Position numbers and translations under genes: made by a program
Origin: Ectocarpus siliculosus
Taxonomy: Eukaryota; Sar; Phaeophyceae; Ectocarpales; Ectocarpaceae
NCBI GenBank assembly: GCA_000310025.1
Contig: FN648075.1
Coordinates: forward strand, 91,412 to 138,640
DNA: 47,229 nt
Reading direction: 5' to 3'
The notes under the pieces: model-generated
The model's input: only the letters and a program-made list of their open reading frames with translations
The model's database searches: none
Told to the model about the DNA's origin: nothing
Part shown: positions 925-34,900 of the stretch, piece by piece
Numbering within the stretch: position 1 is the first letter of the stretch
How the letters are laid out: every line of letters starts with the position of its first letter

Positions 925-3900
925 CTGCAGGCACACGGAAGGAAAGAGGACAACTGAGAATGAGATGGTTTTTGGCAAAAAAATATCGACCAATCAGCGT
1001 GCAGCAACGTCTGAATAGCGATGGGGATAATTCGAAAGTCAAGTGCACCGGAGCTGCGAAAGAAAATCTGAGGAGAGGCGTGGTACATGTGCCTATGAGA
1101 AACTGCTGGGTGAACGAGCGGGCGGTGCGTGGAAGATGCAGGAGGGCGGAGAGGAGGTTGGCAAGGGGAGGGATATGTGCGTGGTTGTGTGCGGGAGGGG
1201 GGTTAGCGAGTAATTTTGCATTGAATGCAAATCCCCTTTGGAAGACCACTGGACAATTTAACAATAAAAGAGAGCACAGAAAAACTGAAGTGTATTGCTG
1301 CCAATGCCCGTAGAGGTGCTGCGCGCGCGGCTGATGGCTGGATCGCACGACACGTGTCCAACAAGCCATGATGCGCTGCCGTGTTGTACGTGAACCGGGA
1401 AGACATGCGTCGCGTTCGGTAAAGCAACGCTTCAGTAACAGAGTATTGTAGAGGGGCGGTTGCTCTACATCAATGGAGGCGGGTAGTGCCATGCCGTAAT
1501 CCCTATACTACGTTGACAACCTCGCACCCCTTTTATAAAGCTGGGATGGGATCCGCGGGCCATTGGTCGGCCAGGCTCGCATGGCATCAAGCGCGAAACG
1601 CCGTGGGGTGTGGGCCGAATCCCACGAGGCCGTGAGCTGCATCCTACCAGGGGCACATCATGAGGCCTTGAGCTGCACGCCACCAAGCGCGAGGAGGGGG
1701 GGAGAGGGGATACACCCTGTCACGCAATGTTTAGTTCGCAGTCCTTGAGGCCACCGCTACTGGGGAGATGCCCGCGCACCTTCGTTCCGTTGCCGAGGAG
1801 GGTAGTGTGCGACTTGTCGTTGCTGATCGCTGCGGCAGACGACACCTTCGCGTCTGCCGTGCCCCCCAATTCCTTCGCCTGCTGCGCGGACGTCACACGA
1901 GTTGTTGTCGCAGTTGTGTGATCGTTCGATGTTGTTTCTTGCATACACTGGACACATGCTTACGATGCACAACACAAAACACAAGATAGCGGACCGGGGT
2001 ACATTGAACGGCCATCTTCCTCTATTTCTAAGAAGTGCTCCGTGGCGAAGCCGTTGACTATCCCTACGCTTGACAACTATGCTGGTCCTCCATGAAATAA
2101 AAAAACGCGGTCTGTCCTCCGGTGATGCTACAGTTGCTACTTCTGCTGAAGAGGATGGTTGTTCTACTGCCCTGCAGCTCTGAGGATGGGAGTCGTGTTG
2201 AGCCCTCTCTCGGATGCTTTGTGTGAGCACTCGTGAGCTATGGACGTGCAGACGAGCACAAACCACTTGTTCTCCCACTCGTGTTCTACCTGAGCACCTT
2301 GAAGTTTGGTCCTCTCTCGGAGATGCTGGGTGACTTTGCTGACCAAGCGACAACGACGTATCCCCTCCAATTTGTTTCTACCAAATGTGTCTTCCCAGAG
2401 AGAAAAAAACGACAAACTATTGCACCAAGAATAACACACGCACGCGTTTTCTCCATCGCTTCTTCTGAGGCGAAACAGGATACCAAGAGGACAAACGAGC
2501 ACTGAGAAAAAGCCGAATAGCATACCTGGAGGCTGGATTCCTTCTTGAAGGCCTTAAGGCCTTTGCGGAACGTGCGGTCTGCGGTGGCCACCAGCAACAG
2601 AACCATGCTCAGCGTCAGGACAACCTCTGGGAGTACCTAAATTTTTCGGCGTCGGTGCACCCACAAGGGCAGCGGTGACATTGATTTGTTGCGTTAGATA
2701 GCCCCAAGTATGCAGGGAGGGGGGAGGTGCAATGATTCATTGGCCAAAGAATGAGCGCATCCCGACATACGAAAACAAACCCCTTTGGCGTTGCTGACGG
2801 GGTAGGTAGGTCCCTGATGCGCGGCACACGCATGTGTTTGTCATCTTACCTTCTGGATGAAAGATCCCACTAGCGCACCCCCAACTGCCGTACAAAAGCG
2901 TGAGTTCATCGTAGGACGTTAAAGGGAGGAGGAGAAGGGAAAGTTGAGGGAGGGTTGAGGGGTTGTCAGGTACAAAGAGCATGTTGGGTGCGGGGGGGTA
3001 TCTGAACAGGGGCCTGTAGGAAAGCAAGAACGCGAAGCAGTTTGAAGGGTAGACAGGCTAACTCCGATGTGGAGAGCCGCGTTAAGGTTTCTCCCCCGTA
3101 ACTGATGGCACGCCGTACAAGCAACTAGACTAGAGCTCTTTAACCATGAAAAGGAGAGGAACGGCTGCGAATCGCCTTTGTGAGAAGGGGGGTGCCGGGC
3201 AACATTAAACATCGAGACGTGAAATTACACTTCTTTTGGTTTTTCCAAGGATCTAGGGGGGCGGGGGCGGCGGCGTTTGGACGTGTGACACCGCATGTGT
3301 GCATACAGCACGTCAAACAGAAAAGCAAAGCCCGTACATAGAATTCATCACCTCTCCTACTGAATACTTTCCACACGCGAAAGAGAAGGCATAAGGACTC
3401 GGACATCCCGCCACCAGCCGGTTGTATCGTACAGCGGTCGAGTACGTCGCCCGCAGCCACCCTGCTGATGTCTGCCTCTCATCACACTCAATCGGTCAAG
3501 AGGGGCCCGTGAGTCAGCTAGCTTCTCAACGACGCTCGGCGAATCGTAGAGACAAATCCTCCTAGACACACACCCACCCACCCGCTAACAAACCAGCTTC
3601 AACGTCGACACAATCAAAACACGGCACCAAGGCACAAACCCACTCGTGAGGGGCTCCATGACGAGGATCAGGTCCCAGTCCACCAAGGGCCGGTCCGCGA
3701 GGGGGTGCCTCTTCTTCATGTTGAGGAAGGTGTTGGTGATGGCGCCACCGAATATGGTGATGTTGGACAGCGGCACCGCGTACTTGGGGCCGAAGCGCAG
3801 CACGAGGATGAAGATGGGGACGAGGATGCCCCCGCCGCCGATCCCGCCGGCCGCTGCGATCATGAGCCCGAAGGACGCCAGGATCACCGTCGCCACGTCC

Positions 3901-6900
3901 CATCTGGGTTTTTGATTCGGGCGTTTTGACGAGTGAGGGTGGGGGCGAGGTGAGTGGCTACGAAGACGTGGGTGGGATGCTGGCGAGGGGTGGGAGGATA
4001 GCGTCAACAGTGTGAGTGATCGCACACCCCCAAGGCCGAAGCTCGATTGCTCCAGGAACAAGACCGTGAGAAAAGCGGCAGATAAAAGCAGTCAAAATAG
4101 GAAAAGCTGTTCGACGACGTCTCTGCAGATCGCGCCCCTCGGTTCGAGTTGCGACGTTGGTAGAGGGGATGTGCGATCACTCATACATTATGTTACGGTG
4201 TATTTGCTCCGTTTCGTCTTGCAGCCTGCCGGGAGGGGGGGGCGTCAATCATGAGGAGTTTTCTTGCTCTGCGTCGATGTAGGCACGGCGTTACGGTTCA
4301 CGTCCGTTCATCAAATAGGGTGGCAAGGGTCTTTCTGGGTTTCGTTGTTCGCTACAGCAAGTAGGTGGCTTTCCTGACGATCTAGAACCGCGGCAGGGGG
4401 GGCGGTGGGTGTACTCATAGTCGTGCATGCCGTTGTCGTTAGACCATTGACCTCGCATCCCTACGGGGGGGGGGGAGGTGTACTCATAGTCGTGCATGCC
4501 GTAGTCGTTAGACCATTGACCTCGCATCCCTACAAAGCCGGGACGGAGCACGCCGGGTTCTCACCGGACCAGGCTCTCACATCACCAAGCGCGAAGCGCC
4601 GTGAGGTATTTGGCGAGTCGCATGAAGGGTGAGCTGCATCCTGCTAAGGGTGTTCGGCATCTTGTGCTTACTTCCTTGCGTACGGATGACAGCTGCGTAT
4701 GAGTTAATTTATTTTCTGGTGCTTTCACTTCCAGAGACAGTTGTAAGCACTGTGTAACTGCCTCGAGGAAGCTTCACCATTTTAACACAACGTGGTACGA
4801 TCATCCCCCTTTGCGCGGAGTGAGGTTTCTCGACCCCGCACAACATGATCTACTCGACCGCCATTATGGTTACCGCCAAAAAAAAAAGCGAGGTAAAAAA
4901 AAAAAAACGGATAACCTGGTTGCCGAGTTCACGAAGTGAATTGGTTTTTTTTACAACGTGTTTGCCAAGGGACGAAAACCCAATCCCGATGGCAAACACC
5001 GAGAGGGGGGGGAGGATGTAATTTTTCACCAAGACCACTAGAACCGACAAACAAAGCGACTCTTGGTTTGGCATACTTCGTTGGAACCCCCCCCCCGTGG
5101 AGAGCCTGGTCCGGTGAGAACCCGGCGTGCTCCGTCCCGGCTTTGTAGGGATGCGAGGTCAATGGTCAAACGACTACGGCATGCACGACCATGAGAACAC
5201 CCCCCCCCCCCCTCCACGGAACCGAACAGCATTTTGTCGTTTTTCGACCCACCCTTCCATCTATATCTCGTATCCCCACCCCGGATACCCACACGAGTCG
5301 CCCCATCTCCATCCTCTACAGCTGTAGTATACGTATGGGTCTGGATACCAGAAACCGCAGTTTCGGGTCAAGGCTCAAGTTCTTCTATTGTTTCTTCACT
5401 ATTTACATATCGTCGAGTGCACGATAATAGAAAGAGTTTACTGTGGGATCCTTGGCGGGGTGGGGCTGGCTGTGTTTCTTGCCCCCAATTTTCTTTTGTT
5501 CCGTTTGGATTGAATCTGTTTCCTACCGCTGCTGTAGCGGCATTTTTCTTAGCTCTGGGCCCGCACTCATTGTATTTTTCACGCCCGTTCTCTTCTCACG
5601 GGGCGCGAAAGCACCTTCACCCCAACTCAAGGCGAGCGGCAGAGGAACAGCACCGCTCTCTTCCCTTGATACTACATAGTCCATGTATCATAAATGACGT
5701 AAGACATGACACCTCCTGGACCGATTTTCAAACCTCGACAACTCCACGACGAAGAGGACGCCAAAATCAGATGGCACGCTTGTTTCTGGAAATGTATCCA
5801 CGAGAAGACTGTTCCAACGCCGCCATTTTCGTCATCACCACCCACCATTGTTTTCTGCCATGGGTTACTCAAGCTTTGACAATCGGTTCAGGGTGTGTGA
5901 TGGGTGATACCTTGGGGTCACTCACGGTAGGTTAATGTCTACTGCTTCGCTATTGTGGTGCTGCTGATCTTTGGCACGGTTGACGGTGGCTAGAGAATGG
6001 ATATCTATGTGGTGGCCAGCAGAGATAACAACAAAGGAGGGAGCGATCACACACGTTGAGTAGGCTTTGTTTGGTGACCGGTGCAGAGGTACAGTAGTCT
6101 GTTATTTTCCTGTTCGCACTACTATTTTGAAATGACATATCTATCTATATGTGGAGCTTCAACCAAAGCATCGCGTTCTTTAGGTGCGAGTGCCGCTACT
6201 ACTCCTGTACTCTACGTGTTCCTCCCGGACTAAGCCCTGTATTTGCATTTTCGGGACCTACCTGTTACCTACCTCGCGAGTCAAGAACAATATATTTCAA
6301 GAGTGCTGGGAGCTCCTGATGCGAATACAGACTGCTGTACTGTAGTGTGCCCTCAACAACGCCGGTATGTCCCCAGCGAATCGACCGGCGCTATCGAAGG
6401 GACCGGCGCTATTCAAAGTACAGAATGACTTGCTTGGCGATTCAGTTTGTGCCCAGAAATTTCGCCGGCGCTATACAGTTCAACGCTACTCAACCGGGGC
6501 GTTGCTAGAGTCCAATGATGCTGTATAGTGTCACACCCTCGGGTCTGTTCCGTTGTTGATGATATTTTTCCGAGTACTCTTCTCACTGCAGTGCAAAAAT
6601 CAGCTTTTTGTAGTCAATAAAAACGACATTTTGCCGCAGAGCGAGAATATATGGTTGGAAGTTGCCTGTTGTGCACGGCACGGCATCTTGTTAGGAAAAA
6701 GAAATAGTCTACACACACAGAAGTGCAGCCTTGCGATGCGCAGTTCCGTTGTTGAGTAACTTGCTATGTTCTTCAGTCGACACGGCCGTTAGAGCAAGCA
6801 AGGCTACAAAGCTCTATGTTGCGTTCGAGAGGATGTATGTGTCGTACGCGCAAGATCAAACGCTGAGCTTTGCTTGTAACTACATGTAGTCCAACGCAAT

Positions 6901-12619: not shown

Positions 12620-15600
12620 CTGGAATGATGGGGTGACGGGGGGGGGGGGGGGGGGGGGGGGGGGGNNNNNNNNNNNNNNNNNNNNNNNNNNNNNNNNNNN
12701 NNNNNNNNNNNNNNNNNNNNNNNNNNNNNNNNNNNNNNNNNNNNNNNNNNNNNNNNNNNNNNNNNGGGGCAGGTGTGCTCAGTCGCTGCTTGGCAGAGTA
12801 TCGTGTTGTGAGGCCGAACCCAGCAAACACAGCAGGAGTACTGTAGTCGTTCCTGGGAGCGTCGATTTTCTCGGCATGCTGGGGTCCCTGAAAAACATTT
12901 TTGAGTTGCTCTCTTCGTCACTGCCGTCTCTTTCCTCACACTCTTCAACCTTCTCCCCCGCACTCGACGCATCTTTCCCCCCATCGCGGCCACCATCTCT
13001 CTCAAAAAAGGAATGGCATCAAGACTTAACTTGGGCTGCGTATGTTCATCTGTGCGGGGTGCACGGCGTTGGTGTCTGACTGCGAGTTCTTGGAGACCAG
13101 ACGCGAAGGAAACACCAGCTAGTTCCTCCCCGCCTCAGAGAAAATGCCTTCGAAATCTGATTGAATTTCGTCCCTTCGCGCTTGAGATGGAATATAGGAA
13201 GTGCGGCTTGATCTTGAGAGAGATGCCGGAAAAAATAACCCTACAAGCCTCACTGAGGCAAACCCCAAGCGCATGGGAGGTAACTTATTCTCTCAGTTGG
13301 CCAAGTTCATGCTGGGGCCAAATTTGTCTGGCCAAGCTTCGAAGCGCAACACGGGGGAATGGGCCGTCGGCTGCGGCACTCAAAACAAACGTAACAAAGA
13401 CGGAACTTTCTTCCTCGCTTCCCTGAGGATATCCCATACATACAAGTTCGGGATGAGAGGTATACTGGAAGAATAGGAGGGCTGGTGCGGACACATCTCA
13501 GGTGCCGCAACAACCGATACACTGAAGCGTTCCGAGAATCATGGGAACTGGGGAGATCGTTGACGCTGATGGATACACGGGTCTCCCACTGCTGGCGTGA
13601 GCTGGCGGACCACTTGTGGCACCGCCTTGCTACCTTCTGGACTCTCTCTCCTTGCCCAAAAATGAACGAGGGACACCTGCCTGCCCCGGCCAGTGGGCGA
13701 AAGCGACCGCGACCTTGGGATACACCAATCTGGCCCGTCGCCTACGCTACAGGGAAGCCCAAGTCGCCACGAGACGAAAAACAAACAAAATAACAACGAC
13801 ATTCCCATACAACAGGAAAACAACTGATGGACATTCGCTACTTCTTGTGCTCATGTGTCATATCAAGCTCCCGTTGGACAACTGACACGAACCACCGCAC
13901 TTCGTGCTTCGTGTGCTGCTACAGTACTGTCTCACATCAAGCTCCTTGGCTATGCTGAGGGCGATCGGCACCGCGAGTGCAGCCGCTGCGTTGTTGGTGA
14001 TCAGCTCCGTGCACACCTGCACCTCGACAGCCAAAGAAAAAACACCGAACGTGGATAGTAAGTCCTTCGTATGTCATGCCCGGCTAAGGGTAAAAACAAT
14101 TAGCGCAAAAGAGCGAGGCACAAAAACAACTACTAAATGACAACGTGTGCGAACATGTCCCCCCCCCCCGGCGTCGTAGGCTCGGTCGCATCGGAACTTG
14201 GGAACTGCCACTGCTCGCACTCTCTGCCCCCTCTACAAGTAACCAATAATATAAGTTGACTCCGATGAGTACCTTCCGTCCGTCTGTCATGAAACACTCA
14301 CGAGAGAAGTCGTGAATAAATACGCCCGTGTCGCAGACCGAAAGGCACTGCCCTTGTCTAGCTGACAGAGGCCCGGAGGCCAATAGTACCTCTAAAACAA
14401 CCAAACACACACACACAAACACAAACACACACATGCTGCCCCCTCACGGGGTCCCAGTTCATGGCAGATAGAAGTGCTTTGTGTTTTTAACCGCACTAAG
14501 ACTGACGTCTTTTCATTGGTCAGCCGGTTAGCGCGGTCGATGCTAATAATAAACACACACACACACACACCGCAGAGCCAAAGACCGCCACTTTTCTAAC
14601 CTGCAAAAAAAAAAACTGATCGCGCAGGATCTCGCGGAGCGCGATAAAAAAGACAAGGAGACGTGTTGACAAGACAAATCCACAAGAATAAGGGAAATAA
14701 GGCAAAGGGGGATCTAGTAAATGCAAATGTCAAACACCCATACAACAAGAGGTGATCAGAATGTCTACAATCAAAACAGGGGAACACCCCGGCAGTCGAA
14801 CCGCGCACTCACCATGGTGAATCCGTACAGGAGGTAGAGGCTGGCAGAGGCGCTCATCCCAGAATCTTTGATGGCATTCCCAGCGTACCCCGCGAGCCCG
14901 CTGTTAGCGATGGCCTTGCTCAGCCCGAGCGCTGACCCGACCAGCAGCAGCAAGGACCAGTCGACGTAGCCCACGCTCTTCCTAGGGTCCACCCATCCCC
15001 CCACTATCAACACGCCTCCGGCAGCGAACGCCGCTCGCACCTGGAGAGAAAACCATCCACGAGGTGCCGGGAGCAGCAGCAGCAGTAGCAGCAGGGTGGC
15101 TACATAGGCGCGGTGAACGTATCGTTGGTCACCGACTACACCACACCACTTCGCAAGAACTCACCGAGGTTCGCTTCTTTGTTTCTCCGTTGCGTACAAA
15201 CACAGCGGCTACAGAAGGGTTTACGGTAGGATTATTTTTCTGAGCACCCGTCTTTACGGTTCCAACGAGCTTCGATCGCAGCCTGGAAATCTTGACTCGC
15301 AGGGCCCCTTGAGTGGTGGTAGTATTCCGTCCCCCGACACGCCTCCAAAGCTCACCATGGTGACGCTGGAGAACAGCACCCACCCCAGCATGCCGCAGAA
15401 CACCAGCAAAGACAGATAATCGTACGGGACCACCGCCTTCGGAACGGCGCTGACCCGCGAAACCAGGTCGAACTCCGGCGCATCCTGCCACAGTCCCGAG
15501 AACGTTTCGTCGGCGACAACGAGGACAACGTCCCCGGGCGCCAGCGGCCGCCTCGCCACCTTCACGCTCCCCTCCGCGGCAGCGAGACCCACCGGACCAT

Positions 15601-18600
15601 CATCATCATCATCGTGGCCGTGCACGACAGCGCCAGACCCTGCGGTGCGTTGCCTCTCATCTTCGCTGCCGCCCCCGCCGCGCAGGGGACTCTCCACGCC
15701 TTCCTCCTTACGGGCAAAGGACCGCCCCCCGTGCCTGCGCTCGAGAGCGGAGATGGCCACATCCCCCCCGGCCGCCAGGGGCGCCGCCAGCATCTCCCCG
15801 CCCTCTCTTTGAGCCGTCCTGCTGCTGTCAGCGGCGTGGCGCACGGCGAGGATCCGGCAACCGTAGCGAGACGCCAGCGCGGCGCCCTCGTGCCCCGAGG
15901 GCCGCCGTCCGACGAAGTGGTTGCGACCGGACAGGACTAGCTCCAGGAACGCAGCGGCGGGCTCCACCGCCGTGTCGCCTGACGGTGCTGCTGTCGGCGC
16001 TCTCTGCAGCTGCGCCGCGCTCGCGCCGAGCACCTCGAGCCCCCTCTCGCCCGAGCTCAGGACGGACCCCAAGAAGGCGGTCATGGTGGCCTGGGGCCGG
16101 CTCACCACGAGGACGTCTCCGGCCCGCACGGCTTCCGAGGGGGAAACGGGATAGATGTCGTCGAAGTCGTCGTCGTCGTCGTCGGCTGTGCCGCTCGGCG
16201 GCCCTCTACCGGCAACACCGCTCGAGAAAGGGCGACCCCGCGATGGTAGCGCGCTTGGTCTGCCTGAGTGCTGCGACGGGGATAGGGCCATGGTCGTCGA
16301 TGAGGACGACGACAGCGATGACGGCAGCAGCGCTCCCGCGCCGCGGGCTACGACGACAGCAGGAGTCGGCCCGTCTGCTGTCCCGGGATAACCCTTCCGG
16401 CGTCGCATCGGGGAGGAGCTGCTGCCGGCAGTCCCCCTGCCTGGAGAAGGGCATGCAGCAGCGGAGCTCGGCCCTTCTTCCAGACGTTTTCTGCGACCCG
16501 GTAACGCGGGCGAACCGGTCCTTCCATTGTCCAAGTCCCGGTAAACCTCCCGCAGGGGGCTCACTGCCGCTGGAAACGCCGCCGCCACCCTCGGCGCCGC
16601 CGCCGCTGTCCTCCGTCGGATCTTGATGAGAGATTCGGCCGGGAGGCCTAGTCGTGCCAGGACGACCGCGACGGGCTTTCCGATGTACGCGAAGTCGTGC
16701 GACAACTGCACCTGAAAGAAGTCGGAGGAGAGCGCAGAACGCCGACATCGCACACAGCAAACAGAGGGTTGGGTTGGAGGGAGGGGGGTAACTTGAGGTT
16801 GTTGCCTGCGTTTGACTTTGGTCGTGGGCCATCGAAACACGCACCACCTTTTTTGTTCGAGCTAAGTTCGAATTTTCTGGTAGAAGCACTGCTGTGTCCT
16901 GTTCGGTGGCCTGTACTCTTCTGCCATTCGCGCCCAAGACAAACGGGAAGGCTGAGTGGGTCTTAGAAATAGCCGCCACGGGCGCATTCGTCCGAGTCTC
17001 CCAACAGCACTGCGACGCAGCTCTCCTCTACGGATTACAAAGTAGGACAGATGAAGGTACAGAAAAGCTTCCATGTCACTGGCAGGTCAACTAGGCTGGA
17101 AAAAAGCCCACCACGATGAACAACCTTCGGCTCACACCGTCCTCTGTTGACTACGGGTGGCCGGCACCAATGCGCTCTTGACCATGCGTCACCTCTGTCA
17201 ACAGCTCTTCCTCCCGCTCTCCGCTACGCCCGCCGCGGTCGCCGCCCCCGGCCCCTGCGAGGATGCGCGGCGCCGCAACCGAGAGGTACAGCATACCCAC
17301 CACCCCGAGAGGCAGGCCGATGTACCCCGGCTCAAAGAAGCCCAGGCCTTCCTCGCCCCACTCCATCACCAAGCCCTGCACCACGAGGTTAGTGGAGGTG
17401 CCGATGATGGTCACCAGGCCTCCGAAGATGCACGCGTAGGAAAGCGGCATCAGCAGCAGCGCTGGGTTGAAGCCTCGCGTGACCGCCCAGTCCTGTGGTT
17501 TCGCGCATCGGCGGGGGAGATCAGATCAGAACAAGCACACGGAGAGTGCCAAAAAAAAAAAAAAACGCTGTTGTTTAGCATACTGTTCTCGGGCAAAGAT
17601 CAGAACAAGCACACGGAGAGTGCCAAAACAACAACAAAAAAAACGCTGTTGTTTAGCGTACTGTGCTCGGGCAAAGATCAGAACAAGCACACGGAGAGTG
17701 CCAAAACAACGAAAAAAAACAACGCTGTTGTTAATAGCATACTGTTCTCGGGCAAGCCCGTCTCACTTTGGGAGTTTCTTCCCAACCCCTAAACATCCTT
17801 GGGTGGTTTCGTTCTCGACGCTTCAAACCTCCAGTCCCAGGCCTAACATGGCACAGCGCAAAGCGCAAATCCTATCGCTGCTGCCGCCAACGCCGTGCCC
17901 CAGCAACAAGAGTCGCGTGGTCGTCGTGATGCGTACCGGTGTCAGTTGTAGCTTTTACAGCACCTCGACAATGGACGCTGAACCCGCGCACAAGTACAGC
18001 GGGCCGATTACTGCTGTAGCTGCCCTTTTTCTCTCCCACACCCCGTTGTCTGCAGTATGCACAACAGTCCAAATCCAAAACACCTCCTGACCTTAGTGAT
18101 GGGTATCAACATCGCCACCACCGGCGTGTTGTTCAGGAACGCCGACAGGAGGAAGGCGAGGCCCATGAGGCGGAGAAGGCCCGCGGTAAAACCGGTCCTC
18201 AACCCGAAGACGTGCTTGGCGGCTCTGTCGGCAAGCCGGGAACGTTCCACACCCTTGATTACCACGAAGAGGGAGCCCACGGCGAGGACGCCCGGGTTGT
18301 TGAATCCCGACAACGCCTCCTCGGTGGAAACCATGCCGGCGTTCCACACCAGGGTCAGGGCGAGGAAGACCTGGGGTGGGGATCCAGACCAGCAGCGACG
18401 ACCGCGGGATGAAAAAGAAAACTCTGCTGTAGAGTTGACTGTGATTTGTACATGTATCACCTAAGAACTTAACAGTTCAGAACTTGAGCCTCAAAAATTC
18501 CAAAAACTAAGAACATGGCCCATAAGAACATGTGCTCAGTTCTGACGTCGTATAAGAACTAGAACCCGCCTTTGGTAGTGTACCAATGCGCATACAGATA

Positions 18601-19175
18601 AGAACGGAGCCTAAAACACGGGCGGCTGCAAGATAAGAACGCGAGCGAAGGTGGCGGGGGTGACCCCAACAGCAGTCAGATTCGAGGGGTGGGGGGGGGG
18701 GGGCACCCCGTGAAATATTCTTGCACGTGCCGAGGGAGGTGACCGATGTACACACAGTGTACCCCCTCTGCGAGGCATTTCGTGTGCTCGTGGTGCTGGG
18801 TGCCTGCCACGCTGTGTGCATGCTGATCACGCAATGGGTTGGGGCAGCCATGGAAATTCTCGACGGAGTACCGGTTTCGCCTTTTCGAGAAGTGCGGCAT
18901 GGCGATAACTGTTGACGGTTCGGGTCATGACCGAATCAACTTGGAGGGTTTGGACAAACCTTATACCTTCATGGACGCCGAGGACTCCAGCGATGACGAG
19001 GGACCTCTAGAGCCTGGGGAGGGTGCGGGGGGAGGGGGTGACCAGAGGTTTGAGGGAGACGGAGACACCAGCAGGGAGGGCATGGAGGACGGCGGGTCCA
19101 GCGACCAAGACGATCACGGCAAGTTGGATGTTCACCAGACTCTTTGTATTTTGTCGTTGTTGTTGCCGTTTCTGT

Positions 19176-19236
<61 letters not shown>

Positions 19237-21090: not shown

Positions 21091-21300
21091 ATGTCAGCAT
21101 TACGGGTGCTCGTGGCCAGTTTGGTGTCGTGTCTCACGATCACGTACATCATCGGCGGGAACTCCCAGACTTGGCCATCGGATGCTGCTGCTGCTACTGC
21201 GATTGCATCGTCCGACTTCCTCTTCTCCGTCGACGTTGTGCTCGACGAATCCGCCGTTGCTGTACCTCTCGGTATCCGGGATGGTCAGACAGTTGCCGAG
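21091..21300 (+). CDS. module gene exon 1: signal peptide and first half of module 1
   Basis: ATG at 21091. A ~22-residue hydrophobic leader, then FLFSVDVVLDESAVAVPLG and IRDGQTVAE, ending at gtatgt in phase 0. Confidence 0.8.
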
Positions 21301-24300
21301 GTATGTCACGACAGTAGCGCTGTCGGGTTTAGTAGGGGACAAATGTCGTGGTAAAGGATGTCAACTGTTTCTCGCTGTCGGGTCGCGGTGCAATCGACGT
21401 GTTTATCCGTAGCATATCTTTCTTTGACATGACACGCACAGACGGGACAGCACCTTGTTTGATGACGATGTACTCATGTTTGACGTAACTCTCTCGTGCA
21501 GGCTGCATTGGGGTTCTGCCACGAGCAAGGGTTGGATGGAGCAATGCAATCTGCTCTAATGCCACAGCTGATGAAGGTTGGTTTGATCTGATCTAGATTG
21601 ATTTGATCTACTGTACGGTTGTGTAGGCCACAAATAAAGTCAGTACAGTCTAAGGTGCATCGGTAGTTTGTACGGTCCAATACTGTTTGTAGACAAGAAT
21701 ACTCAAGGCTACTGCTGGATTGTTCACCTATACGCCGTCGAAGAACAATACGTTAGATATTATTTCATTCTGTCAAGACTTTTTTTGTAGTGAAGGACTC
21801 TAACTATCTATACAACAAGATTGCAAATTCTTCTTGATCAATCACCAATATTCATCATGTTTCCTCCTCACATCTCTCGCTAAGCTAACAATCCATGTGT
21901 ACTGCCCATGTGTATCGTTAAACGAGAAAGGGGAATGGGAGAGGGGTACGGGGGACTGCAACACTTGAGCAACTTCTACCTCACTACTGACTACTACCTA
22001 CTCTGTTTCGAATGACGTGTGGCACAAGGTTTTGGAGGACGGGATAACGGAGGTAGTCGGCCCACCTTTTCCTGTTGGGGACGAGGCATCAATTCCTTCT
22101 TCGGATGCGGAACGCGTGGCCTCTGACGCCCAAAGAGATGTCCCGGACGATTCGAAGCTTGCCGACCCTGTTCTTACCCTGGGAATTTCCATTGATGGGA
22201 ACGAGGAGCGCCCGCTTTTCTACTACACCGGCCAGGCAAGCATGTTCGTCAACAGTACCATCCACACAATCCACAGCAGTAGGAAAAGTGAAAATTAGAG
22301 CTCGGCCGACGGCACAAACTTGGAAAAAAATCGTGAATGCCCCGCACCAAATCCTTGCATCAAGTCTTGAGTTACGCAGGGATACGTTAATTAGGCCGCA
22401 AACCATCTGGACAGTAGTAAATACATTGTAGTAGAATCCCGTCGTCATAGTGCCTCGTGGAAAAGTCCGACAACAACCCTTAGCAGTTCTTCTTTGGCCC
22501 ACAACAAACCGCCAATGCAGCACTGCCATCCTGTATGTCCGTTCACAGAATGCACCCCCTACCCTCCCACGAACCTACACGCCACCTGTGGGTGCTTCAG
22601 GACCCCGAAAAGGTGGCCGTGGCGTTTTGTACGGAAAACCTGGTCTCCGAAAGTCTACCCGAGGATTTGGCGCGGTGCTCCGGGGCTCTCTCGGCGCACA
22701 TCACCGAAACACTCGGCACCACCGATGAACCTTCGAGACACGATACACTACCGAAGCAGCAGCAGCAGCAGCAGCAGCAGCTACAACAGGGACAGGAACA
22801 TTTAGAGAGGCACGGGTCCCTTGAAGAATCCAATCCATATTCCGCTGATGGTGTTGCTGTTGAGGGTCTGTTGATGACTGTGCCGCTCAACGTCAACGGG
22901 GTGGAGACGGTGCTGCAGATTTTCCGAGATTCCAACGCCAAGGATTTGGCGAGCGATTTCTGCCGTCGGGAAGAGTTTGGTCTTGAAGGGTCGTTCTTGG
23001 AAAGCTGTTCTTCTCAGGTATGTCTTTGTGATAGGTCATTTGCCTAGGATACCATCTGGGAGGTGTGTCTCGCAAGATTACCGACCATCTTGCCTAGACT
23101 CGGTTTCATTCCATTCCCACACAAGCAGTGGACCACTTGTTACAGTGCATTCCCTCTTCTCCAGCGTTGCCTGGGAGTGAGCGACAGCGACCGACGGAGA
23201 GAAAAAGGGAGGAACCGGGAAAGGAATTTGGGCTGAATTACGGACTTTATATCCTCGAAGTTACTCTCGTCGGTTCGGGGGTCCTAACACACACGCTCAA
23301 CCAGAGGCATGAATAGGAAATACAAACCTCGGGATCATTTCGGGCTGCGGTGTGAAAGTTCTGCTCTGTGGAGAGTCGCGCGCCGCAGAATATGTTCCTG
23401 TGCTACCTTTAGCTACGCTACCGTAAGAGATAGATCATAACAAACGTTTAATCAATGCAGACGCTACGAATGAATGCCTCTTCCGATACGTTTGGTCCAA
23501 CACCATGCCTGCCGCAGATGGTGGATATCGTGCACCGCGCGGTGGCGACTTACGAGAGACAAGACGACCAAAGCGGAGAACCACCGGAGCGAACACCGTT
23601 TACGTTTAAAGTTCCCGTAACTCTCGCGGGACTTCAACTTCATGCCGAGTTCAAGGTGGGCGCTTTGTTCAATTGCAATACACATGCTATCACAGCCAGT
23701 CAAGGAGACTCGAACGATCGTACAGCTGTTCTCCGCCGCATCTCCGGAGATGTAGGGGCACGCTTGCCGGCAGGGCAGCATGGCGTATCCTCGCGGACTT
23801 TCTCGATCTACTATTATAGTTCAAAACCCCTTATTTTGGCAAGACGGGGGGAGGGGTCACGAAGAGTATATTCGTGACGCGATGAAGTGTTTTGGGATTT
23901 GAACAGTCTACCATCGAGAGCAAGGCAACAGCAAGCACTGCTGTTTCAAGAGATCAATGAAAACAAAAGAAAACTAGTGAGTGTTCACCGGGCAGGGCAG
24001 GGTCTTCAGGGGTCGCAAAGCGTGTAAATCCCACCTCAATAGAGACCCCCAAGAACCAACCGTTTACCCCGTCACCACTCGCCCATCTTTGTTGACCCCC
24101 CCAGACCACCGAGACGCCTCGCACATCGGCTAGGCGATTCTGCACCCCTAACCTACCGGTGATCGAGTCCGCTCTGGGACTCGACGCCTACGAGGGGGAG
24201 GACGAGGGGAGGGGCGAGGAAGAGTCTACGGGGGTCGGGTTCTTTCTGTCGGAGGGACGGAAGAGCCTGAGAGAAGCGTGCACGGTGGTGGTGGAGGACG

Positions 24301-24950
24301 CGATCAACGCCGTGCTGCTGGGGATGCGCGAGAGGGTGGGTCGGATTCGATCTGTTATATTGTAGTGGCTCCATTCACGCTGTGTGAGAAAAACAGTTCG
24401 CCTGGAACGAGGTGTTAATGTTTTGATTATCGGGTCGATATTTGTGACTATACACTCTTCTTTTGTAGTTTTCGCTGCGACAACTCTTGCTAAAACTTGT
24501 CGGGGTCGGGATGAGCCCAGGTTTCTCTTGCTGATGTTTGTGGCCGTTGTGGACGAGATACGCCTTGCTTCCACCAATTCTTTCGTCGCATCGATCCACA
24601 TCAGAGTCAGTCGTGGCGTAGGCCATTCACGCCCTCTCCCTCCCACATTGCCCATGATGGACACCACAAGATTTGCACAGTCCCTTTCTAGATGTGAAGG
24701 ATTCACATCAAGCTTTTAGCCTCCAGCGTCACCTGTTTGATCACTTCAAAACCCGTTGTCTCTGCTCCGGCCATCCTCATACCCCGACGTGCCCCCCTCA
24801 CAAAACAACAAGGTGCTAGAGGCGGAGCTGACCCAGGCGAATTCCACCTACTCCTCCAGCTATGACGACAGCAGTGATGGGTGGCCCCAGGAGGGAAGCG
24901 CAAGAGGGGCGTGGGCAGCTTCCCAGATTGCGGCAGATACAACGGCATAG
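21091..24950 (+). CDS. secreted protein of four tandem A..FC modules, unknown function
   Basis: Seven exons (21091-21300, 21502-21576, 22029-22235, 22601-23017, 23461-23655, 24105-24335, 24813-24950), every junction phase 0, give 490 residues and a TAG stop. The N-terminus is a signal peptide (LRVLVASLVSCLTITYI). Four modules follow, each with a hydrophobic strand pair such as VAVPLGIRDG, LTLGISIDG, MTVPLNVNG or FKVPVTLAG. Each then has an Ala-rich helix ending in Phe-Cys: AALGFCHEQG, KVAVAFCTEN, DLASDFCRRE, SARRFCTPN. Modules 2 and 3 have a second Cys 15-16 residues on, suggesting disulfides. A poly-Gln run sits between modules 2 and 3. The C-terminus is Ser/Asp-rich. I do not recognise the family; binding or adhesion outside the cell is a guess. 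It is divergent from the SLC13 gene. Confidence 0.8.
21502..21576 (+). CDS. module gene exon 2: second half of module 1
   Basis: 25 codons after ctctcgtgcag: AALGFCHEQGLDGAMQSAL and MPQLMK, donor gttggt. It provides the FC half of module 1 as its own exon. Confidence 0.8.
22029..22235 (+). CDS. module gene exon 3: linker and first half of module 2, GC donor
   Basis: 69 codons after a weak acceptor (gtggcacaag). Starts VLEDGITEVVG, continues with an acidic linker, then PVLTLGISIDGNEERPLFYY and TGQ. It ends CAG|gcaagc, a non-canonical but well-formed GC donor that keeps the phase. Confidence 0.7.
22601..23017 (+). CDS. module gene exon 4: end of module 2, poly-Gln, module 3
   Basis: 139 codons from gtgcttcag to gtatgt. 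DPEKVAVAFCTENLVSES completes module 2. A Gln repeat (CAG array) separates it from module 3, MTVPLNVNGVETVLQIFRD with AKDLASDFCRREEFGLE. Here the two halves are fused without an intron. Confidence 0.85.
23461..23655 (+). CDS. module gene exon 5: linker and first half of module 4
   Basis: 65 codons after aatcaatgcag. A helix (LPQMVDIVHRAVATYERQ), a Pro-rich spacer, then FTFKVPVTLAGLQLHAEFK to a gtgggc donor. Phase 0 at both ends. Confidence 0.75.
24105..24335 (+). CDS. module gene exon 6: second half of module 4
   Basis: 77 codons after a pyrimidine-rich ccccccag. TSARRFCTPNLPVIESALG, an acidic Glu/Gly segment, then CTVVVEDAINAVLLGMRER before gtgggt. Confidence 0.75.
24813..24950 (+). CDS. module gene exon 7: C-terminus
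   Basis: 45 codons plus TAG. It begins VLEAELTQANSTYSSSY, echoing the VLED start of exon 3 that also follows a module. The acceptor aacaacaag is weak but the phase fits. Confidence 0.65.
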   Translation: MLEAELTQANSTYSSSYDDSSDGWPQEGSARGAWAASQIAADTTA

Positions 24951-31914: not shown

Positions 31915-34900
31915 GAGGTTCTCTCACTCACCTTGGCGTGCGATCGAAGCCTCCCGGGGGCGAAGGTCCGCCCGCAGTCCCCGCACCGCTCCTCCTCCGC
32001 TCCTCCTGCTCCTCCTCCGCCCAAAGAAACTTCCAAACCCACGCCGGAAACTTCTCCCGCCGCCGCACCGCGCCCCCCCCCAGTAGCAACAACGCCTCCG
32101 AGCTCGGAATTTTCCGAGGCGACTGCTGGTGCGAGAACGTTCTCCGGACCGTTCCCTTTCGAGACGAAGGGAGGAAGAGCGTGCTGCAGGAGGGTAGACG
32201 AGTCTTGGAATGAACCGCCGTTCAGCGAAGATGCGCCTTAGTTGAATTGCGGGAGGGGGGGGGGGAGGGGGGGGGACGGGGGGGCAGAGGGGACGGGGGG
32301 TAAGATGGCAGTCATTGAGCTGGGCGGGTCGGGGGGGAGGGATCATTCTCTGGTTCGGCATGTGCTTGGTGTCAGGATTGCCATGAAAACAATAGGCTCC
32401 GATCTCTACCATAAATACAGGCAACAAAGACGGACGGAGTTTGCCGGGTTTTGGATGCCAGGAGGGGGGAAGGAGGGGGGGGAACAGGGGTCACATTTCT
32501 CTCTGCTCTATACCAGCCTTGATGCCTACTTCCCGTAGCCCATTGCTGTTCAAGCATTCTTAAACCTCCCGGGCTAATACTGCACTAGACGCTGGGTCTG
32601 TCTTCCGCTTGTGCAGGCGGGCTTGAACTGAAGCAGTGCTACAAAATTTTGGAGAGTCGTAAGATCACCGCCAGGCCAACACCGCCGACAGCAAGACACA
32701 ACCACGTACCCCCCCCCGCAAACATTTACAACAATCACGACAAAGAGGTGGGTATGCTCACCTTTGCCGTGAGTGTTGGTAGCGCTAGTGTGCATCTGGT
32801 GCTCGACCGAGACGGCTCTGATGGCCACTTCTACCTGGACAACACATGCAAACGATTGACGGGACGGATGAGAAGGAGCGTTTGAGTTCGTGTACATTGT
32901 CGTTGCAAACGTTCAGCCTGTAACACCACAGAAGAACAGGCATGCATACATACGTACATGCGCGTGGTCATACATTTAGACGGGCTTAAGGTTGGTTCCT
33001 GAAGCACAGCGTGTGCACCTTTGGTGGCTACAACAGTGGAGGGCCACAAGAGAACCCCCCCCCCCTCCCGCCTTTGCCGCGACCGAACGAGATCTTCAAC
33101 CGAGGACATGGTGCTCAGTTTTCAGGAAAAGCGTTCCCGTTTTCTTTTGCTACTCCGCCAAGACAATCATCGATAATTTGCCACGAAGCACAGGCATTTT
33201 ATTGCCACGAATTATTGCCACTAAGTAAGGCAAGCATCGGCGATTGCCACCATTTATGACAACCATCGACAAAGACCACGAAGGGAGGCATCGATTGCTG
33301 GAATAATCGACAATTACCAATGTTTAAGCCAAGTATCGATAGTTATATCGTCGTGAGGGGAGTTCGAAAGGGGAGGTGCCAACGGCAGACGGTAGGCATA
33401 ATATAAGAAGGAAGCTATGTAGGGTTGTAATAGTTCGGTCCTTGTTTGTTGAAAATGAAATGTACGTTACCTTACCTGCTTGTGTGTCTCGCTCCCACGG
33501 CATCGATCGAGCACGTAGCACTCCTGGCCGTAACGGACGGATGGACATTAAACAAATAGAAGTAACGGACGGATGGACAATTAAACAAATATAAGTACGG
33601 ATGAACATTAAACAAATAGAAGTAACGGACGGATGGACAATTAAACAAATATAAGTACGGATGAACATTAAACAAATAGAAGTAACGGACGGATGGACAA
33701 TTAAACAAATAGAAGTACGGATGAACATTAAACAAATAGAAGTAACGGACGGATGGACAATTAAACAAATAGAAGTACGGATGAACATTAAACAAATAGA
33801 AGTAACGGACGGATGGACAATTAAACAAATAGAAGTACGGATGAACAATTAAACAAATATAAGTAACGGACGGATGGAATTAAACAAATATAAGTAACGG
33901 GCGGATGAACAATTAAACAAATATAAGTAACGGACGGATGGACAATTAAACAAATAGAAGTACGGATGAACAATTAAACAAATATAAGTAACGGACGGAT
34001 GGAATTAAACAAATATAAGTAACGGGCGGATGAACAATTAAACAAATATAAGTAACGGACGGATGGACAATTAAACAAATAGAAGTACGGATGAACAATT
34101 AAACAAATAGAAGTAACGGACGGATGAACAATAAACAAATGTAAGTAGGAAAAAAAAAAAAAACAGGCCATGTTCATGTACTAAGCACGAATGTGGATGC
34201 CGGGTCGAGTCACGCAAAACAGCGAATGAGAGGATGATCATTTTATGAGAGGATGATCTGAGAGGATGATCATTCTGTTTTCGTAAAAAAACGTGTCTTC
34301 TTGCTGTGGAACTCCACCCTGAGCCTCGGACACTTGTTTGGCATAATTCCTGCTGATCAAACTCGAATCATCCCTATCCTAGCACGGCAAACACCAACGA
34401 AGCTCTAGACGATCAATTCTTGCGGGTTCTCAATCCCTTGGTATTGCCATAACATCTTTACCGAATCCCGCGACATAAAATCACTACAAACCAGCGGCTG
34501 TGAACCGCTGGGAAGGAAAAACACACACGAACGAAACAGGGTTAGATACACGGCATAGCTTATACCTGAAGATATTACCCCGCAATCCCCGGACCAATTT
34601 TCAAAGCTAGACTACTCCGCAGCGGAAAAGAGTGGCGTTCGAACCGTCCCGTCGACAGCCTTCTCAAAACACACCGTTTGATTAAGTTTACTTGGAGTGC
34701 CTCCTTTTCGTGATGGAGCAATCGATGAGCTTTTAAGAATCGATCCAGGGGGTGTGATATCGTCCTTCACCCCATATACGGTATGTACGTATATACCTGC
34801 AGATGGTCTCGCAATCCCCCCGCACGGACAACGCCTTCGCCGCAAAAGGGGCAGAACACCAAGGGCCGGGCCTCGGAGTCTTCGCTGAACAGCTGCCGTC

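Follow-up and report, generated by a model that had tools for sequence, protein, structure and literature searches.

What kind of protein is encoded by a seven-exon gene on the forward strand of contig FN648075.1 of the brown alga Ectocarpus siliculosus (GenBank assembly GCA_000310025.1), in which a hydrophobic N-terminus is followed by four copies of a short module with a Phe-Cys motif? The gene occupies positions 21091-24950 of a 47,229-nucleotide stretch (contig positions 91,412 to 138,640), here called the window, and a sequence-only reading of this DNA had found no known domain for the module. Brown algae evolved multicellularity independently and have many secreted proteins without an assigned domain. 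The analysis described below covered the window and the genome from which it comes (189,456,909 bases in 492 contigs, the window being C457:91412-138640). We propose that the modules are best called PFU-like, after the PFU domain (PF09070) of PLAA and Doa1 (Ufd3), and that the protein may be a secreted, disulfide-braced, multivalent protein binder, a proposal whose chances we judge, from sequence, to be about even.

Gene structure

The seven exons, joined, encode 490 amino acids and are arranged as follows (window coordinates).

21091..21300, forward strand: exon 1, with the start codon, a hydrophobic N-terminus that is probably a signal peptide, and the module 1 strand pair
21502..21576, forward strand: exon 2, with the module 1 helix (AALGFC, Cys76)
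22029..22235, forward strand: exon 3, with a linker, the module 2 strand pair and a GC donor at its end
22601..23017, forward strand: exon 4, with the module 2 helix (Cys174, Cys190), a poly-Gln linker, and the module 3 strands and helix (Cys285, Cys300)
22859..23017, forward strand: core of module 3, unbroken within exon 4
23461..23655, forward strand: exon 5, with the last part of module 3 (Cys319), an NAS sequon at residue 308 and the module 4 strand pair
24105..24335, forward strand: exon 6, with the module 4 helix (Cys381), an acidic insert and a segment containing Cys427
24813..24950, forward strand: exon 7, with the C-terminal tail, an NST sequon at residue 455 and the stop codon

A run of eight Gln codons lies in exon 4 at window 22757-22780. 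The earlier claim of seven phase-0 exons holds: all seven exon lengths are divisible by three, and each intron contains three to eight stops in the frame continued from the upstream exon. Five of the six introns have GT donors, intron 3 has GC (cag/gcaagc), and all six acceptors are AG. The G+C content by codon position is 0.635/0.464/0.635 in the exons and flatter, 0.504/0.484/0.465, in the introns.

Since introns interrupt modules 1, 2 and 4, three of the four, the module-splitting junctions could be scored against alternatives, namely nearby combinations of a GT or GC donor with an AG acceptor that keep the frame open. The profiles used for scoring were built from the other modules (the tested one being left out), the module of a second gene of this genome (the C18 gene, described below) and three PFU sequences. 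The test covered introns 1, 3 and 5. The junction of exons 1 and 2 ranked first of 58 (16.2 bits versus 9.8 for the runner-up) and that of exons 3 and 4, across the GC-AG intron, first of 42 (17.5 versus 10.2 bits). For the latter, exon 4 was cut before module 3, the rank obtained with uncut exon 4 (7 of 11) being confounded by that module. The junction of exons 5 and 6 ranked first of 25 with a narrow lead (7.0 versus 6.4 bits). The splice pattern is consistent. It might be objected that the gene, a model read from genomic DNA, is a chance collage of open frames, given the GC donor in one intron. The junction ranks, the codon-position composition of the exons and the recovery of all four modules by leave-one-out profiles (see below) make a collage very improbable.

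Four related modules in one protein

Each module (M1 to M4) consists of a beta-hairpin, a turn and a helix carrying A..FC; in some modules another helix, possibly starting with Cys, comes after it. The A..FC motif occurs four times in the 490 amino acids, as against 12 times in the 94,454 positions of the six-frame translation of the window (these four included), or 0.06 per 490 positions, and only 77 of 200,000 composition shuffles contained it at least twice. Leave-one-out profiles, made from the three other modules and the C18 module, placed each of M1 to M4 above all of 300 shuffles and all of 1,375 background open reading frames (ORFs), taken from the rest of the window and from locus L014. 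The E-values (expectation values) were 0.0005 for M1, 0.014 for M2, 0.007 for M3 and 2.2 for M4, so that the recovery of M4 is weak in absolute terms. The protein therefore holds four related modules, as the sequence-only reading had stated. They are much diverged, because among the six pairwise comparisons only M1-M3 and M2-M4 surpassed 100 of 100 shuffles, the remaining four pairs being matched by 3, 7, 12 and 1 of 100.

The description of the protein as repeat-built and Cys-containing is likewise borne out by the four A..FC modules and by eight cysteines after the N-terminal segment (residues 76, 174, 190, 285, 300, 319, 381 and 427). The second Cys that had been placed, for some of the modules, 15-16 residues after the first is found there in M2 (16) and M3 (15); in M4 the distance is 46, and M1 has none. 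As read from the sequences, M1 and M2, like the C18 gene and the PLAA-like gene of the same genome, carry a Gly 10 residues ahead of the Phe, a position taken by Asp in M3 and Thr in M4.

Remote similarity to the PFU domain

When the 490 amino acids were scanned against the 24,736 families of Pfam at E<=10, the sole family listed was PFU (E 0.002, 18.7 bits), the HMMER filters removing most matches above about E 0.1. The match joins residues 42-85 of the protein to positions 56-97 of the 113 in the profile. In profile-to-profile comparison by hhalign, the four modules and three PFU sequences (yeast Doa1, human PLAA and the alga's own PLAA-like PFU) aligned over 38 columns at 93.9% (E 1.6e-7), a score reached by none of 100 column shuffles. 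The four-module profile gave 65.5% with the alga's own PFU alone and 42.6% with the yeast sequence alone, and the single modules gave 25.0 (M1), 48.4 (M2), 4.1 (M3) and 14.7% (M4) with the PFU profile, again with 0 of 100 shuffles in each case. With longer module bounds, M1, M2 and M4 stood above 60 of 60 shuffles.

Used as a search profile, the four modules recovered human PLAA at E 0.17 and, at E 0.005, the PLAA-like PFU of the alga itself, both scoring higher than all 300 shuffles and all 1,375 background ORFs; conversely, a hidden Markov model (HMM) built from PFU sequences only placed M1 and M2 above the controls. We conclude from these comparisons that the remote similarity to the core of PFU is significant in sum and borne mostly by M1 and M2. 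The earlier description of the module as unrecognised thus needs qualification: PFU is its only Pfam match, with a score that stays below the Pfam cut-off, and the profile comparison supports a remote similarity.

PFU is listed in one source among the alpha/beta ubiquitin-binding domains (PMC7226360), and another describes PLAA as an intracellular protein in which the PFU adjoins a WD40 propeller (PMC5420347). The modules share with the PFU of PLAA and Doa1 the hairpin, the turn and the helix with A..F, and in the four-module profile this hairpin-helix core is in register with PFU. They differ in having a Cys after the Phe and, in three modules, a further Cys, and in lacking a counterpart of the first PFU strand (EGK.YD). 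The protein also differs from PLAA in its four copies, which follow a probable signal peptide, and neither the WD40 propeller nor the PUL domain of PLAA/Doa1 appeared in its Pfam listing at E<=10.

Possible relatives in the same genome

The genome has one PFU match, in a PLAA-like gene (locus L007, C13:687255-687380), which scores 16.5 bits unspliced and 35.3 bits, above the Pfam cut-off, when two exons are joined. Its best matches among PDB sequences are Doa1 (E 0.025-0.028) and PLAA (0.39), and its upstream exons resemble by eye what we take to be the stretch of PLAA preceding PFU. Unlike the window gene, it shows a single PFU, scoring above the cut-off and with the first strand present (EGG.YD); like the modules, and in the same genome, it has an A..FC helix, with the Gly-to-Phe spacing of M1 and M2, FC standing where yeast and human PFU have FL.

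The C18 gene was found by querying the genome with a module consensus. Its exons, read from sequence, are all multiples of three (5/5) and encode 349 amino acids.

L013 7251-7403, 7596-7826, 8260-8376, 8843-9178 and 9361-9573: exons of the C18 gene

After a signal-like N-terminus come Cys-rich repeats, then an acidic linker and finally a single C-terminal module. This module, a complete hairpin-helix unit whose FC is followed 11 residues later by a second Cys, has V..FC in place of A..FC. It matches the window modules at 94.0% (0 of 100 shuffles). The Cys-rich repeats that precede it (LPRPK, CHDAC), a feature absent from the window gene, gave no Pfam family above cut-off, the best being DUF7772 (E 0.26). 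The C18 gene probably encodes a second secreted carrier of the module. We also would like to mention a G-patch-like ORF (by eye) upstream of it, at L013:2834-4240.

The sequence-only reading had suggested searching stramenopile proteomes with an HMM of the four modules. A search of this genome with a profile consensus returned the C18 gene, M3 of the window and the PLAA-like gene and nothing further; intron-split copies can be missed in such a search, since M1, M2 and M4 of the window were themselves missed. A differently lettered module consensus gave no match, and locus L020, found with the Cys repeats of the C18 gene, holds no module. Scans of viral contigs and prokaryote genomes, which start from short near-exact peptides and so have little reach, returned no relatives. 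The idea that the module occurs in FkbM methyltransferases was unsupported, the sole FkbM match listed (locus L014) being without the module, in a search that can miss intron-split genes.

Descent from PFU or an independent domain

Several observations weigh against a PFU-like assignment. The Pfam score of 18.7 bits lies below the curated cut-off of 26.2 bits, and when the modules were scanned singly only M1 gave a match (E 0.15). The first strand is unmatched in the profile alignment, and no EGK.YD-like motif was seen by eye before any module. The four-module profile reached Doa1 poorly (E 5.4, 1 of 1,375 background ORFs above it), as did a five-module profile (E 22; one shuffle in 300 and four background ORFs in 1,375 scored higher). 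With the PFU-only HMM, M3 (2 of 300 shuffles and 1 of 1,375 ORFs above), M4 (0 and 1) and the C18 module (1 and 1) lay at the edge of noise; with longer bounds M3 was matched by 2 of 60 shuffles, which is not significant. The C18 module gave 3.1% with PFU, a value reached by 1 of 100 shuffles (1 of 60 with longer bounds). Neither the protein itself nor a six-row profile (the four modules, the C18 module and the alga's own PLAA) found PFU among PDB sequences, the profile at E<=10; both searches gave unrelated matches only, at E 0.16 or worse. The missing second Cys of M1, the substitutions of the turn Gly in M3 and M4 and the V..FC of the C18 module point in the same direction.

The structure prediction of one module, also suggested earlier, was run on M3. 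AlphaFold2 was given M3 with three helix fragments in a four-row alignment, exon-fragment alignments having had misplaced hairpins. The resulting model has strands at residues 4-12 and 15-22, forming a hairpin, and helices at 27-36 and 45-50. The best of five models had a predicted local distance difference test score (pLDDT) of 70.3 and a predicted template modelling score (pTM) of 0.36, the other four had pLDDT 52.5-61.6, and exon 4 folded alone (pLDDT 50.7) gave no usable model. Searches with the M3 model yielded no usable match, since none of the 368 Foldseek matches was at E<=0.001 and none of the 50 listed was a PFU, and none of the 868 chains compared by VIA-align reached Z>=2. These absences of PFU also tell against the assignment, but at the confidence of the M3 model the fold searches would neither support nor exclude PFU.

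The modules might form an independent, lineage-specific hairpin-helix domain that did not descend from PFU and resembles it through a simple and common arrangement. The score below the Pfam cut-off is in keeping with such an origin, as are the C18 module, which matches the window modules strongly and PFU hardly, the weakness of M3 and M4 with the PFU-only profile, and the PDB profile and fold searches without PFU. It is harder to reconcile with the listing of PFU alone among all Pfam families, with a profile score that no column shuffle reached, and with the A..FC and Gly-to-Phe spacing shared by the PLAA-like PFU of the same genome. We regard an independent origin as a real possibility, somewhat short of probable. 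The modules are called PFU-like here, and not PFU, because the first strand is unmatched, the M3 and M4 matches are weak and the PDB and fold searches were without PFU.

Possible secretion, disulfides and binding

Secretion of the protein, claimed earlier together with a signal peptide, is plausible. The hydrophobic N-terminus (best 19-residue hydropathy window at residues 3-21, mean 2.03, against 1.54 for the best window starting after residue 30) and two N-glycosylation sequons (NAS 308, NST 455) are in line with it; the N-terminal segment is a putative cleavable signal peptide. The same hydropathy window is long for a signal peptide, a point against free secretion, and the segment could instead serve as the anchor of a type II membrane protein or of a resident of the secretory pathway, its modules lumenal or outside. 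The small and polar residues GGNSQT that follow look by eye like a cleavage site, and the N-terminal hydrophobic stretch of the C18 gene looks shorter. An anchored protein, which would be compatible with PFU-like modules, appears unlikely.

The positions of the cysteines would permit disulfides within M2, M3 and M4. In M3, C319 heads by eye a segment resembling the second helix of PFU, whereas MAFFT placed C300 there. If it enters the secretory pathway, the protein may form the bonds 174-190, 285 with 300 or 319, and 381-427. It is strongly acidic (78 Asp/Glu versus 32 Lys/Arg), which disfavours simple binding of anionic or sulfated polysaccharides and leaves protein binding unaffected. Binding of cell-wall polysaccharide by a matrix protein, one form of the cell-wall or matrix role proposed in the sequence-only reading and one that predicted secretion, repeats and cysteines would suit, is improbable in view of this acidity and of a Pfam scan of the 490 amino acids that listed no carbohydrate-binding family.

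A flexible, multivalent, extracellular protein binder is our best inference because the inter-module linkers are acidic or poly-Gln. The face formed by hairpin and helix would bind partner proteins or peptides, by analogy with intracellular PFU, which binds ubiquitin weakly; outside the cell, ubiquitin itself is unlikely to be the partner.

Genomic surroundings

The gene had been described as divergent from a sulfate-type transporter. A divergent neighbour with an exon of anion-transporter type is present, with sulfate as a putative cargo. A second transporter-family exon lies further away.

18011..18460, reverse strand: CitMHS-type transporter exon (PF03600, E 1.7e-15), belonging to the divergent neighbour gene and not part of the protein
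3588-4091, reverse strand: TauE/SafE sulfite-exporter family exon (PF01925, E 3.9e-8)

The window also contains a tandem array at 33530-34147 (period 60 in 10 copies, or 125 in 5, with 92-95% matches), another at 17523-17755 (period 78, three copies), a triplet-like run in the ORFs of a neighbouring stretch (about 19150-19235) and a run of N at about 12660-12770, which may be an assembly gap, adjoining a Gly/Pro-coding repeat. The EsV-1-7 family is expanded in brown algae; 150 matches to its repeats came from the 150 scored of 880 first-look candidates in this genome, and none from 14 control genomes, in keeping with a brown-algal origin of the DNA.

Implications

It is conceivable, if rather doubtful on the sequences compared here, that the module arose by duplication of the PFU of PLAA, with loss of the first strand and gain of a disulfide, and now serves as the repeat unit of extracellular brown-algal proteins recognising extracellular protein partners, an unrecorded secreted family. 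Literature searches on PFU in brown algae or stramenopiles, and on extracellular or secreted PFU, listed no paper; with most subscription journals beyond their coverage, this is no proof of novelty. The link to PFU suggests a fold for an orphan repeat, predicts how its disulfides pair and supplies a profile with which the rest of the family may be found. If true, it would mean that a cytosolic adaptor fold has been reused outside the cell.

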